A DNA stretch of 49,350 nt from Sunxiuqinia sp. (lineage in GTDB: Bacteria > Bacteroidota > Bacteroidia > Bacteroidales > Prolixibacteraceae): the NCBI GenBank assembly GCA_024635605.1, contig JAGXIR010000221.1:1-49350 (forward strand), written 5' to 3'. This document shows, piece after piece, positions 45,152-49,350 of this stretch. A model generated the notes under the pieces. The model was not told the DNA's origin. It made no database searches and saw only the letters and a program-made list of their open reading frames with translations. Within the stretch, counting starts at the first letter, position 1, and every line of letters begins with the position of its first letter. Position numbers and translations under genes: made by a program.

Positions 45152-45208
45152 CAATCTAAAAAAATTGAGCGTCTCACTCCGAGTGAGACGCTCAATTTTT
45201 TTAGATTG
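45152..45208. terminator. 28-bp perfect palindromic terminator after the RND operon
   Basis: The left arm 45152-45179 and right arm 45181-45208 are perfect reverse complements (28 bp) around a single C. The central part GAGCGTCTCACTC is GC-rich and flanked by A7/T7 runs, so it works as a bidirectional Rho-independent terminator. The stem is much longer than needed. Confidence 0.85.
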
Positions 45209-45312: not shown

Positions 45313-45705
45313 ACGCAGTAATAACCCAACCACCTGAAACTAAAATAAAAAATATATCCAACCACCTCCCTCCCGGAATTTCGGAGCTAAAAGCATGCGT
45401 GATGCCACTGCCGCAAAGTCTCCTCTTTTTAAAGAGCCTGTCCCGAACTCGCTTCGGGAAGGAGTACCCGAGCGCAGCGAGGGGGAGGTGGTTCTTGACC
45501 CTTCCGGGTTCCGATCAATCGAAACCACCTTCCATTAAAAAAAAGGGAAAGAAAACCAACCACCTGTTATTGCACGACCTTCCGAGCTCTTTTGGTCCAC
45601 TTCAATTTTCCCCTGTTCGGGGGGTAAAGTTGATCCCAATCTTACTTTACACCTGGCAACCTTATTTTTCTTTTCATCGTATGATTGAGCAAAAATCAGG
45701 GCTTT
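45313..45705. other. Repeat-rich spacer before the lipoprotein genes
   Basis: This gene-free stretch has four forward AACCACCT motifs (45328, 45360, 45523, 45557) and one AGGTGGTT (45486). One copy of the palindromic element is at 45360-45493. Short open frames cross the element on both strands, but they are translations of the repeat. A hairpin CCCC-GTTC-GGGG-like sequence lies near 45610-45625. The lipoprotein start follows at 45706. Confidence 0.6.
45360..45493 (+). repeat. Palindromic AACCACCT element, copy 1
   Basis: The 134-bp element begins AACCACCTCCCTCCCGG and ends GGGGGAGGTGGTT, an inverted pair. Inside is the shared core GAGCCTGTCCCGAACTCGC with the hairpin TCCCGAA/TTCGGGA, then AAGGAGTACCCGAGCG. 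The interior also shares ATGCCACTG and a T-run with the copy at 48650. It looks like an older or diverged copy. Confidence 0.8.
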
Positions 45706-47271
45706 ATGAAAAGCACTCACCTTTGTGGAATCCTCGCCATCTTGTTGCTGTTGGCCTCCGGGTGTGCACAGACCGTTTTGAACAGAAGCGTTTATCGGTT
45801 GTCTGATAACGAACTCAACAGTCCGGATGCAAAAGCCAAAATCCTGAAAGTGCATATGAATGACGGGACGCTTTATGTGTTGAATGAATGGTCGTTTAGC
45901 GGAGAAGCAGAAATCGTTATGGGCCATGGTGACTACTACAATTTCAATCGACGGTTGCTTTCCTCGAATAAAAAGGAAAAGGATTCCCCGGCTTATGAAA
46001 TCCCCTATTCCGAAGTAAGCTTGATTGAAACCAACAAACTTGAACGCGATGGGCGTAACCTCCTGGGAATCTCCATTGCTGGTGTTTCTTCTGCTATTTA
46101 TTCCATCTATTGTATTACCGACCCAAAAGCTTGTTTTGGCTCCTGTCCAACGTTTTATGCCATGAAAGAGGGCAACTGGCACATGATTTCCGAAGGCTTT
46201 TCATCCAGCATATCTTCTTCGTTTGAAAAAAGCGATGTGGATATGCTTTACGGAATCGATCAACCAACCGACGGCTTCTCCTTGAAGTTGACCAATGAAG
46301 CCCTGGAGACCCACGTGATTCGCTACGTCGATCTGCTGGCTTTTCCACAGGAATTGGGCGAACAGGTTTTTGCGACTGAAGAAGGCGTATTTTACCGCAC
46401 CTCCGCCCTTCAAGCTCCTCAAACCTGCCTGGCGGAGGAAGGAGATTTGCGGGCACAGGTCCAGGCGTTTGACGGCAATGAGCGGTTCAGCCTGACCGAT
46501 GAGAACAACCTTGCCGGGAAAGAAGAAATTATGCTGACATTTGCCAACCCGGGAGCGGTGGAATCCGGCTTATTGATTGGCTCCAGACAAAGCCTGCTCA
46601 CAACCTTCTTGTTTTACCAGCTGATGGCCTACTCGGGAAATCACTATGGCCATTTTGTTGCGCGGGTAGAAAACGGCGATCCACACCTTTTGAAACGAAT
46701 CGAGAAGATGTGGGGCAAGCTGGGAGGAATTGAAGTGTTCCTTCAAACAGCTGATAAAAAATGGCAAAAGGTGGATGAAATTGAGGAGATGGGGCCCATC
46801 GCGGCCGACATTCACCTGGTGAAGCTCCCGCCAACAGAGCAGGAAAGCATCACCTTAAAGCTTCGGCTAACCAAGGGGCTTTGGCGGATCGATTATTTAG
46901 CCCTTGCCGAAATCATGGGAGAGGAAACACCCCTGCGTATCGAACCCCGGCTGGTTACCGCTAACGACACCATTTGCCGGGAGGCCTTGCAGTTGCTGAA
47001 CGATAAGCAGAAACCCCTGGTCCCTTTCCCGGGCGACCAGTATACCCTCCACTACACTGTGCCAGATGATTGCAGTTACCAGTTTTTCCTGGAAACCAAG
47101 GGCTATTACCTCGAGTGGATGCGCGACGAGTGGATCAAGGAAGAAGATCTAAAAAAGGCCGCGTTGGCGCTGTATTTCCCCGGCCTGTTTATGCGTAAAG
47201 CAGCTCCGGCATTTAAACGGGCCGAGCCACAGATGGAGAAACTATTTTGGGAGAGCCGGTATGTTAAGTAA
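45706..47271 (+). CDS. Lipoprotein of unknown function with CFGSCPTFY motif
   Basis: From the ATG at 45706 the product is 521 residues. It has a lipoprotein signal (HLCGILAILLLLASGC, lipobox LASGC), so it should be attached to a membrane facing the periplasm or outside. A first domain contains DGTLYVLNEWSF and AYEIPYSEVSLIETNKL, a small strand pattern seen in many Bacteroidota envelope proteins. A second part has KACFGSCPTFYA, resembling the CfGxCP motif of DUF6438-like domains, followed by HMISEGFSSSISSSFEKSDVDML. The rest is mixed alpha/beta with no motif I recognise. It overlaps the next lipoprotein gene by 11 bp. Function unknown. Confidence 0.75.
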   Translation: MKSTHLCGILAILLLLASGCAQTVLNRSVYRLSDNELNSPDAKAKILKVHMNDGTLYVLNEWSFSGEAEIVMGHGDYYNFNRRLLSSNKKEKDSPAYEIPYSEVSLIETNKLERDGRNLLGISIAGVSSAIYSIYCITDPKACFGSCPTFYAMKEGNWHMISEGFSSSISSSFEKSDVDMLYGIDQPTDGFSLKLTNEALETHVIRYVDLLAFPQELGEQVFATEEGVFYRTSALQAPQTCLAEEGDLRAQVQAFDGNERFSLTDENNLAGKEEIMLTFANPGAVESGLLIGSRQSLLTTFLFYQLMAYSGNHYGHFVARVENGDPHLLKRIEKMWGKLGGIEVFLQTADKKWQKVDEIEEMGPIAADIHLVKLPPTEQESITLKLRLTKGLWRIDYLALAEIMGEETPLRIEPRLVTANDTICREALQLLNDKQKPLVPFPGDQYTLHYTVPDDCSYQFFLETKGYYLEWMRDEWIKEEDLKKAALALYFPGLFMRKAAPAFKRAEPQMEKLFWESRYVK

Positions 47272-47830
47272 TAAGCAAATAAGCAATTGGATGGTCTCGC
47301 TGGTGGTGGTCCTTTCGATTTCGTGCCAAACCTATACGATACCAGCCGCCTACGACACGCCTTACTCGGAAATCAGGGAAAACCCCTACGGCTGTTGGTC
47401 CGAATTTGAGTTGCGGAATTCAGCCTCCAAGGTGTCGGGCGAACTGATCTGTATGGAGCATGATACGGTTTATGTGCTGGTGCTTGATCATCATGTGCAG
47501 GCGATCGAAGCAGCCCAGATTGCCGGTTACAAAATATACACCCACAAAAGCCAGTCGGGGAGGTATGGGAAATTTAGCTTATTGTACCTCATCCCCAGTG
47601 TGGTGGGGGCTTTAGTCCAAAGTGATTATGCCGGGGGGTTCTTGTCTTTGGGAGTGCCGGTGGCGGTGGTTGGCCTCACCCATATCATTATTGAAGGATC
47701 GAATAAAAAGAATGTGATCACCGAAAACAACACCATCCGGTTGTACGAAATCGCGAAATACGCCCGTTACCCGGGTGGAAAACCCATGGGCGTGGACCTG
47801 AATCAACTCGTCTGGAAAGAGGAAAGCTGA
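47261..47830 (+). CDS. Small lipoprotein of unknown function, coupled to the upstream gene
   Basis: The 189-residue protein has a signal segment ending at the lipobox SISC (about residue 22), so it is probably a lipoprotein. Residues about 55-90 (SGELICMEHDTVYVLVLDHHVQAIEAAQIAGYKIY) repeat the 'value shown, then site address' strand pattern seen early in the upstream lipoprotein. A hydrophobic, glycine-rich hairpin follows (LLYLIPSVVGALVQ and GGFLSLGVPVAVVGLTHIII). Its start overlaps the end of the larger lipoprotein gene by 11 bp, so both are likely made together. I recognise no family. Confidence 0.7.
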   Translation: MLSNKQISNWMVSLVVVLSISCQTYTIPAAYDTPYSEIRENPYGCWSEFELRNSASKVSGELICMEHDTVYVLVLDHHVQAIEAAQIAGYKIYTHKSQSGRYGKFSLLYLIPSVVGALVQSDYAGGFLSLGVPVAVVGLTHIIIEGSNKKNVITENNTIRLYEIAKYARYPGGKPMGVDLNQLVWKEES

Positions 47831-48244
47831 TGGTCCGGATCCCGGTTTTGAAGCCCTATGTCTTCCCAAAGGCTTTGGACCGGGACAGAGATAACCCAGC
47901 AATTGCCCTTCCCCAACCTGAAAAATGAGAATCCAACCACCTCCCTCCCGGTAAACCGGGAGTACTCCTCCTTGGGAAAGTAGGAGAATTTACGACAGTG
48001 ACAACACGCTTGCTTCAAGTTCCAAACTTCCGGGAGGTGGCCCTTTCTCCTCCTTACCAAGGAGGAGTACCCGAGCGAAGCGAGGGGGAGGTGGTTTTCC
48101 TTTTCAAGAGCCTGTCCCGAACTCGCTTCGGGAAGGAGTACCCGAGCGTAGCGCAGGGGGAGGTGGTTTTTATTTAGTCGGAATGGCGTGATTCAAAGAT
48201 GAGATTTGCTGTTTTTGGCAAATTGCCCGAACTTGAAAAGAAAA
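47831..48244. other. Repeat-filled spacer between lipoprotein and DUF559 genes
   Basis: This 414-bp stretch has no gene. It contains the palindromic element at 47935-48168 and short flanking sequence. No promoter was recognised for the DUF559 gene. Confidence 0.6.
47935..48168 (+). repeat. Palindromic AACCACCT element, copy 2 (composite)
   Basis: The 234-bp element starts AACCACCTCCCTCCCGG and ends GGGGGAGGTGGTT. It holds hairpins CTCCCGG-TAAA-CCGGGAG and CTCCTCCTT-ACC-AAGGAGGAG and two tandem right-end units, one ending at 48096 and one at 48168, each with GGAGTACCCGAGCG. The second unit shares the GAGCCTGTCCCGAACTCGC core with the other copies. It directly precedes the DUF559 gene. Confidence 0.85.
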
Positions 48245-48617
48245 ATGGTCAAACTAAACAACCGGACTTACCTGAAAGACGTCCGCAAGAGGTTGCGAAA
48301 CCATTCCACAGCAGCCGAAGCAACACTCTGGAAGACATTTAAAGAAGAAACAGGTCGAAGGGTTGAAATTCCGTCGGCAGCATGCTGTTGGTAACTATAT
48401 TCTGGATTTTTATTGTCCGGAAATACAACTGGGAATAGAACTGGATGGCGAATTCCATAGCGGTCCTGTAGCCGAAGAAAAAGACCGCGAACGTGATTCC
48501 TATTTTAACTCATTGGATATTGAGATCCTGCACTTTGAAAACCGGTGGGTATTTGAATATCCCAAAGACATGATTGAGGCTATTTTGGAAGTAAAGGCCA
48601 AACGAAAACGGCAATAG
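48245..48617 (+). pseudogene. Frameshifted DUF559 endonuclease-like gene
   Basis: The first frame from the ATG at 48245 encodes MVKLNNRTYLKDVRKRLRNH and STAAEATLWKTFKEE, the typical DUF559 start (LRxxxTxAExxLWxxL). The rest is in another frame, from about 48345 to the stop at 48617: KFRRQHAVGNYILDFYCPEIQ, LGIELDGEFHSG and IEILHFENRWVFEYPKDMIEAIL. These hold the family's D-x-Y-C and E-L-D-G residues expected for a PD-(D/E)XK-like nuclease. One surplus base near AAAGAAGAAA (48341-48350) explains the break. Corrected length is about 124 residues, normal for the family. It may be a pseudogene, a programmed shift or a sequence error. Confidence 0.85.
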
Positions 48618-48649
48618 CTCCGAGTCAAACCAAAATAGAAACAGGTTCT

Positions 48650-48905
48650 AACCACCTCCCTCCCGGTAAACCGGGAGTACTCCTCCTTTGTAAGGAGGAG
48701 AAATGCTCAACTCCCAGGTTTTTAGAGTTATAGCTAGCAAAATGCCACTGGCCAAAATTCTCCTCCTTTTTTCAAGAGCCTGTCCCGAACTCGCTTCGGG
48801 AAGGAGTACCCGAGCAACGCGAGGGGGAGGTGGTTTGTCCTTTTCAAGTGCCTGTCCGGCTTCTGACGGAAGGAGTACCCGAGCGTAGCGAAGGGGGAGG
48901 TGGTT
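48650..48905 (+). repeat. Palindromic AACCACCT element, copy 3 (composite)
   Basis: The 256-bp element begins AACCACCTCCCTCCCGG, 32 bp after the DUF559 stop, and ends GGGGGAGGTGGTT. It contains CTCCCGG-TAAA-CCGGGAG, CTCCTCCTT-TGT-AAGGAGGAG, the GAGCCTGTCCCGAACTCGC core with its TCCCGAA/TTCGGGA hairpin and two right-end units ending at 48835 and 48905. It is the closest relative of copy 2 but has a different middle. Confidence 0.85.
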
Positions 48906-49001
48906 TGTTTCAGGATCTGCCCGCGACTTGCAGCTAAAGGCGACTGTAAACTGCCCACTTCTTGCTATTGACTCTTCCGACCCGATCATCAGAATTGTAA
49001 T

Positions 49002-49014
49002 GGGGCTTTGCCCC
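49002..49014. repeat. Small GC hairpin
   Basis: GGGGC-TTT-GCCCC is a perfect 5-bp stem. It has no T-run on the plus strand and lies between two repeats, so a terminator role is doubtful. Confidence 0.45.
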
Positions 49015-49040
49015 AAACCCCGTCAGCTTGCAGCTTTTTT

Positions 49041-49119
49041 TTAACGCGAAGCCATCAAGTTGATGAAGAAGATGAACACCCTGGAAGCTCAACCTGCAAA
49101 GGGGTTTCACCTGAAATCA
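49041..49119 (+). repeat. About 80-bp direct repeat, copy 2 of 2
   Basis: TTAACGCGAAGCCATCAAG through CACCTGAAATCA aligns with copy 1 at 45232-45312, in the same orientation, with one small gap and scattered changes. It closes the island on the right side. Confidence 0.8.
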
Positions 49120-49228
49120 TTGGATTCATTCCAAACGGGTTTCCTCCTTTTGAACTTTCGCTGTCATTGATGGTTTAAGCTACTAACGGACTGAAATTCA
49201 AGTTCGACTGATTTTAAAAATAAGCAGG

Positions 49229-49350
49229 ATGCTACACGTTGCAACTTTTGTTTTACTCATGTTAACAACGAATCCCATGGTACTGGTTGACTTTTCGAAA
49301 AATAGCGATTTACAAGCTTGGTTTGTGGTAAACGACGATGTAATGGGTGG
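49229..49350 (+). CDS. CIA30-family protein, 5' partial
   Basis: The frame from the ATG at 49229 is open to the window edge (40 codons). After a short hydrophobic leader (HVATFVLLMLTTNPMV) it reads VDFSKNSDLQAWFVVNDDV followed by MGG. The DFS..W..VND.VMGG pattern is the N-terminal signature of the CIA30 family (PF08547, NADH:ubiquinone oxidoreductase intermediate-associated protein 30), a beta-sandwich of carbohydrate-binding-like fold. The leader may be a weak signal peptide. The rest lies outside the window. Confidence 0.75.
   Translation, partial: MLHVATFVLLMLTTNPMVLVDFSKNSDLQAWFVVNDDVMG

Follow-up and report, generated by a model that had tools for sequence, protein, structure and literature searches.

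The DUF559 gene at 48245–48617 of the window, by which we mean the whole 49,350-nucleotide stretch of DNA analysed here, and the palindromic elements on either side of it probably form a mobile element, damaged in this copy, whose sole gene encodes an EDxHD/DUF559 nuclease and whose ends are REP-like, GC-rich inverted hairpins. The window corresponds to contig C60 of source genome G000 (3.08 Mb in 240 contigs, 71% complete).

The preliminary description of this DNA had placed the gene between two composite elements (47935–48168 and 48650–48905) with common left and right ends, at distances of 76 bp and 32 bp. The ends were found at exactly these places, and both distances are correct. The left end AACCACCTCCCTCCCGG occurs at 45360, 47935 and 48650, and the right end GGGGGAGGTGGTT at 45481–45493, 48084–48096, 48156–48168, 48823–48835 and 48893–48905. 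With up to three mismatches, the initial 15 letters of the left end had nine matches in the window (shuffle mean 1.11); for the right end, with up to two mismatches, there were ten (shuffle mean 1.15), and neither count was reached in any of 100 shuffles. Each flanking composite element consists of an inverted palindrome pair, which is REPIN-like, and an additional right-hand unit. The features of the window are as follows:

45360–45493, plus strand: solo (nuclease-free) element with left end AACCACCTCCCTCCCGG and right end ...GGAGTACCCGAGCGCAGCGAGGGGGAGGTGGTT
47935–48096, plus strand: upstream palindromic element (inverted pair), from its left end through the first right end
47945–47962, plus strand: left-end hairpin CTCCCGG-TAAA-CCGGGAG, from single-stranded DNA folding
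48101–48168, plus strand: upstream additional right-hand unit, terminating in GGGGGAGGTGGTT
48169–48244, plus strand: leader from element to gene, which aligns with the copies on contig C108 and in genome G003
48245–48617, plus strand: DUF559 (EDxHD/Vsr-like nuclease) gene, frame-broken near 48.34 kb
48618–48649, plus strand: 32-bp spacer from gene to downstream element
48650–48835, plus strand: downstream palindromic element, from its left end through the first right end
48660–48700, plus strand: downstream left end with two hairpins, z −5.5 as single-stranded DNA
48838–48905, plus strand: additional right-hand unit of the downstream element

Six stretches were folded as single-stranded DNA, with the left end of the downstream element as the sole outlier; the upstream left end had a z of −1.9, one right unit −1.7, and the others −1.3, −0.5 and +0.6. 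Further short AACCACC ends lie at 45328, 45523 and 45558 around the solo element (45328–45566) and are perhaps decayed ends from older insertions. A separate long palindrome at 45153–45207, with arms of about 26 bases and a 3-base centre, is located shortly after an RND transporter gene and is probably a bidirectional terminator.

Pfam recognises DUF559 (PF04480, E 1e-17) in the second half of the gene and nothing in the frame of the first half. Relative to the intact copies on C108 and in G003, a one-base break near 48.34 kb puts the start and the remainder of the gene into different frames; it may reflect either a pseudogene or an assembly error. The domain assignment given earlier thus stands for the second half of the gene, but a single continuous gene does not. 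Genome G000 has two DUF559 matches, both bracketed by palindromic elements. The left-end pattern is found five times in it, in each case exactly even though two mismatches were allowed; more diverged element DNA is also present, for example on contig C188. The copies on C60, on C108 and in G003 have a common layout, with a right end 76–99 bp upstream and a left end 21–35 bp downstream of the gene. Matches between them span element, leader, gene, spacer and element (83–85% over the gene part) and do not include any of the neighbouring genes (window 47000–49350), with one match extending about 40 bp beyond a left end. Because the matches cover the module only and the ORFs flanking the C108 copy differ from those flanking the C60 copy, a single genome holds the module at different locations. 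A 914-aa ORF on C108 has a C-terminal sorting tail, as recognised by eye, one of the gene features from which the genome is taken to belong to Bacteroidota.

The protein was compared by profile and by structure. Searched against the PDB, the DUF559 profile matched 3hrl at E 2.3e-30 and 3r3p, the I-Bth0305I catalytic domain, at E 8.5e-7. The same two structures came first when a Pedobacter member, modelled with AlphaFold2 (pLDDT 78.8), was searched with Foldseek; 3r3p was matched there with an E value of 6.9e-5 and a TM score of 0.71. Weak matches to the Vsr structures 1vsr and 1cw0 followed at ranks 12 and 15 (E 0.04–0.06). Alignment of DUF559 sequences revealed invariant E, D, ExDG, H and D columns, and these conserved residues suggest a family of active nucleases. 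Profile, fold and invariant columns together show that DUF559 contains an EDxHD/Vsr-like catalytic domain homologous to that of I-Bth0305I. The model also matched Toxoplasma mitochondrial ribosome proteins (query TM 0.56–0.70), presumably through RAP domains. I-Bth0305I was reportedly described as an EDxHD homing endonuclease by Taylor et al. in 2011, and it is treated as such in two further papers (PMC9403480, PMC3943268; PDB 3r3p). The statement that DUF559 proteins have no settled role therefore needs qualification, since one of these papers (PMC9403480) has placed a DUF559 gene among the EDxHD homing endonucleases.

Repeats on both sides of the gene are a property of many free-standing DUF559 genes. 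For each gene, the 350 bp on its upstream side were aligned locally with the 350 bp on its downstream side, in both orientations, and the best score was used. A phylum sample of 40 free-standing loci was drawn from the higher-scoring matches in 296 genomes, blind to their flanks; one locus (L114) had too short a flank, which left 39, and control ORFs came from the same regions. A score of at least 20 was reached by 29 of the 39 DUF559 genes versus 16 of 333 control ORFs, and a score of at least 30 by 26/39 versus 7/333; in a named multi-phylum set the corresponding values were 30/61 versus 16/349 and 20/61 versus 8/349, control scores being possibly depressed throughout because control ORFs often have coding flanks. 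The multi-phylum set excludes two loci matched at or near a contig end (L201, L212) and six with short flanks (L149, L158, L165, L185, L187, L190), and three of its 61 members (L164, L179, L211) have stops within the matched stretch. Its ten long-frame loci, counted separately, yielded five with a score of 20. Palindromes are thus strongly enriched around DUF559 genes, as had been supposed from the window, and both tests rule out chance proximity of the two. In addition, similarity between nucleases tracks similarity between their flanks (rho 0.22 for another set of 61 free-standing loci; largest of 500 permutations 0.105), a covariation that is partly due to shared genome ancestry.

No flank repeat was detected at a score of 20 around 10 of the 39 and 31 of the 61 free-standing genes, which counts against a mobile element with palindromic ends and is compatible with DUF559 being a Vsr-like repair or defence nuclease to which the adjoining palindromes are incidental. 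This idea gains from Caulobacter VsrA, which is reported to contain DUF559 and to be needed for a DNA-damage response in cells devoid of a cytosine methyltransferase (PMC12907096). PADLOC also matched three of the DUF559 domains, in one case to the model of a homing endonuclease; these matches were weak and partial, and DUF559 was rejected as a defence system on this ground. A role restricted to repair or defence is nevertheless very improbable for the family as a whole, given the enrichment of flank repeats over controls, a linkage that sets the DUF559 genes studied here apart from Vsr and VsrA, and given the in-frame insertion of DUF559 into synthetases, MetH and RecG described below. Some members could well have a host role, for example those inside restriction-modification genes.

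Across genomes, the association between palindromes and DUF559 holds, but it is not exclusive. DUF559 matches, weak ones included, were present in 171 of the 296 genomes of the phylum draw. Palindromes of the type CCTCACCC-CCCTCTCC, searched for with the pattern CCTCACCCN{2,6}CCCTCTCC, occurred in 63 of these 171 genomes and in 14 of the 125 DUF559-free ones (Fisher p 5e-7, a statistic that ignores phylogeny). An earlier pattern, TCCCCTNNAGGGGANTTAGGGG, had matched just 2 of the 296 genomes and was replaced as too narrow. Some DUF559-free genomes are rich in palindromes (22 in G062, 10 in G144), which argues against the mobile-element reading. At closer range, exact AACCACCTCCCTCCCGG was found only in G000, G003 and G005 when 41 relatives were searched. 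G005 carries seven exact AACCACC left ends on contigs other than those of its three DUF559 genes, one of which was placed in the tree and belongs to another subfamily. The palindromes of G005 and of the DUF559-free genomes may be relics or copies mobilised in trans. Comparison of solo elements on G005 contig C171 (L276) with the syntenic region on G000 contig C40 (L302) showed one element that is absent from G000 and another common to both; the intergenic DNA is too diverged for a clean cut to be seen at the absent element, which likewise tells against mobility. G003 also has another dispersed repeat, about 170 bp long and roughly 80% identical to L276:7428–7595, in many, partly clustered copies on contigs C2, C33, C34 and others.

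Palindromes that occur without DUF559, or on contigs other than those of DUF559, raise the alternative that they are spread by another agent, such as TnpAREP/RAYT or some other enzyme, and that DUF559 is cargo caught between two of them. A search of 18 chosen genomes detected Y1_Tnp in 14, including all seven genomes of the genus of the window and three of seven DUF559-free palindrome carriers (G126, G095, G230), and this distribution favours such an agent. The remaining four of the seven carriers tested (G062, G144, G041, G165) gave no Y1_Tnp match, and in G000 the PF01797 genes lie on contigs C206, C187 and C87, whereas the five matched left ends are on C40, C60 and C108. On these grounds we rejected RAYT as a hidden partner, three carriers with Y1_Tnp notwithstanding. 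Cargo status also fits poorly with DUF559 units that, ends included, recur at numerous unrelated sites and as a single ORF, and we regard it as unlikely.

Related DUF559 units also lie in frame inside other genes. Thirty-seven copies, a part of all long-frame matches, sit in long open frames in which the reading frame continues through both ends (L060 is at the end of its frame). Hosts were identified by Pfam scan for 19 of the 37; the other 18, and the distinction between IleRS and ValRS, were assigned by eye. According to Pfam, the hosts are MetH, RecG, LeuRS at two sites, other class I synthetases (ValRS and IleRS among them by visual inspection), HsdR, HsdM, Eco57I-type enzymes, a methylmalonyl-CoA mutase fusion and UvrD-type helicases. 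LeuRS inserts recognised by eye are present in Gillisia mitskevichiae, Gillisia marina and Aequorivita todarodis. An inverted match across the nuclease domain with a score of at least 16 was found in 20 of the 37 inserts and in 2 of 285 control segments from the same ORFs. The other 17 inserts, including the four recG copies tested (scores 9–12), remained below this value, which counts against inverted ends as a general trait of the element. Self-splicing introns and inteins were rejected as explanations, as there was no Rfam match at the gathering threshold in the window or 11 loci, and a scan of 17 host ORFs for Hint domains was negative at E ≤ 1e-6.

Two observations concern particular hosts. 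In Pedobacter chinensis (L142, 5890–7116), DUF559 with palindromic ends is located in frame directly upstream of a sequence that, by eye, we take to be HisF-like. Restriction-modification genes are recurrent hosts, with inserts in HsdR (L050, L052, L057, L066, L089), in HsdM (L065, L083) and in other genes of this kind (L044, L047, L074, L085, L088), of which L047 has a methylase domain only in the Pfam scan. Some of these inserts may have been co-opted as nuclease domains.

Clean filled and empty sites, which had been proposed as a way to recognise insertion, were found for related DUF559 units; the window locus itself lacks usable neighbour matches, the adjacent gene (47261–47830) being fully matched only in G000 and weakly and partially in G004. 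Among 41 genomes of one genus, recG contains the insert in 3 and is without it in 37, and the remaining, incomplete genome (G368) has no full-length recG. The inserts are about 144 aa long and contain PF04480, and in two of the three filled genes they begin with GCCTCC... and terminate in ...GGGGC. Alignment of junction DNA from the 3 filled and 10 empty genes placed the insert at one codon position. The same alignment showed no target-site duplication, which counts against the mobile-element reading. In a tree of the host protein with the insert removed, built from 5 filled rows, two of which belong to other genera, and from 27 of the 37 genomes with an empty site, filled G366 falls among the empty genomes G347 and G358. 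Four changes of the filled label are required on this tree, at least three of them forced by well-supported branches, so that the insert is patchily distributed; some of the changes may be losses. In three comparisons, divergence along recG showed neither a peak at the insert nor a co-conversion tract, and gain by classical homing with a long tract is therefore not demonstrated.

A tree of 101 DUF559 domains, from which copies with internal stops had been left out, resolved several host sites into single groups. The RecG inserts form a group of 6 rows, two of them identical, from three genera within one family; the 4 rows of MetH inserts come from three families and the 3 rows of IleRS inserts from three genera in a single family, while HsdM inserts account for 2 rows. 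Four of the five HsdR inserts, from three families, also group together. No single group was formed by the inserts at LeuRS site 1, by those at LeuRS site 2, or by those in other restriction-modification genes, a result that argues against the favoured reading. In G206 (four loci), G118 (two pairs) and G002, copies from different places of the same genome cluster with each other; a pair in G037 does so too, its members lying 3.4 kb apart on one contig. The tree fits site-specific persistence or homing, with occasional spread within genomes.

The grouping of RecG, MetH, IleRS and HsdM inserts by host site, the patchy filling of recG and the homology to I-Bth0305I would all be expected if DUF559 homed by cutting the element-free gene, while the palindromes were merely structural (for RNA stability, as terminator or as in-frame linkers) and went unrecognised by the nuclease. 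Such homing directed at the target alone does not explain the repeats around free-standing genes or the dispersed solo pairs, and the three recG comparisons provided no sign of co-conversion. In our estimation it is distinctly unlikely to be the whole explanation.

Taking these data together, we favour the mobile-element reading and propose the following model. The nuclease would recognise its cognate palindromic ends, an element-free target, or both, and would cut or nick the DNA; host repair would then copy the element into the break. Intergenic insertion would produce a nuclease gene framed by palindromes, as in the window. Insertion in frame into a protein gene would produce a host enzyme with a permanent nuclease insert that is not spliced at the protein level, and such insertion may be tolerated because ends and nuclease together are read as a single open frame. 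Palindrome pairs devoid of a gene would be non-autonomous copies that spread in trans.

An element of this kind behaves as homing endonuclease elements do and has the architecture of a REPtron, yet it lacks a defining feature of each, because no self-splicing host was detected and no Y1 transposase lies between the palindromes. With EDxHD homing endonucleases, represented by I-Bth0305I, it has in common the homologous catalytic domain and, as judged from relatives rather than from the window locus, site-specific groups, filled and empty sites and a patchy distribution. It differs in that no self-splicing intron or intein was detected around DUF559, and in having REP-like palindromic ends, free-standing copies and dispersed solo palindromes. 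Most DUF559 proteins, moreover, measure 110–170 aa and consist almost entirely of the catalytic domain; they are without the long DNA-binding region ascribed to I-Bth0305I (PMC3943268).

A REPtron, as defined in PMC6006769, is a TnpAREP/RAYT transposase gene flanked by REPs. The DUF559 module resembles it in that one gene is framed by palindromes that are also dispersed elsewhere as inverted pairs, and in that palindrome similarity follows gene similarity. However, the gene between the palindromes encodes a DUF559 nuclease (PF04480) and not a Y1 HUH transposase. According to the same paper, REPtrons do not appear to transpose as a unit (PMC6006769), whereas the DUF559 module was found at two places in one genome. 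The GT[AG]G tetranucleotide that lies 5' of the stem in REPtrons has no counterpart here; by eye, GTGG is 3' of the stem, and several other palindrome families have, among the matches listed, tails such as GGGGTGAGG or TTTAGGGG, likewise seen by eye.

Rickettsia palindromic elements, of about 150 bp and with a conserved peptide as described (PMC10969869), offer a further parallel, since relatives of the DUF559 module also represent palindromic DNA in frame inside unrelated protein genes. The copy in the window is intergenic, by contrast, and DUF559 inserts carry a nuclease, of which the portion of that paper available for the Rickettsia elements makes no mention (PMC10969869). A size of about 150 bp is not matched by the recG inserts with their PF04480 domain either. 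Insertion sequences and MITEs are similar in their terminal inverted repeats and different with respect to target-site duplication, given its absence from the recG junctions. Searches of open-access full texts found no paper that links DUF559 to palindromic ends, which is weak evidence of novelty because subscription papers are mostly outside this body of literature; the papers in which DUF559 co-occurs with 'repeat' and 'palindrom' deal, to judge by title and opening of the abstract, with quorum sensing and CRISPR and with NAD metabolism.

Beyond the window, we see about an even chance that these modules belong to a bacteria-wide class of mobile elements in which an EDxHD nuclease and REP-like ends co-evolve, which invade essential genes in frame, persist there translated and unspliced, and are the source of many palindromic repeats that have no RAYT in bacterial genomes. 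The recG sites and the named carriers in Pedobacter, Gillisia and Aequorivita allow direct tests of this proposal. A large family annotated as being of unknown function thereby gains a testable role, and palindromic repeats without a RAYT gain a candidate mobiliser, in the form of an element that carries a nuclease and persists within important enzymes without any sign of being spliced out.
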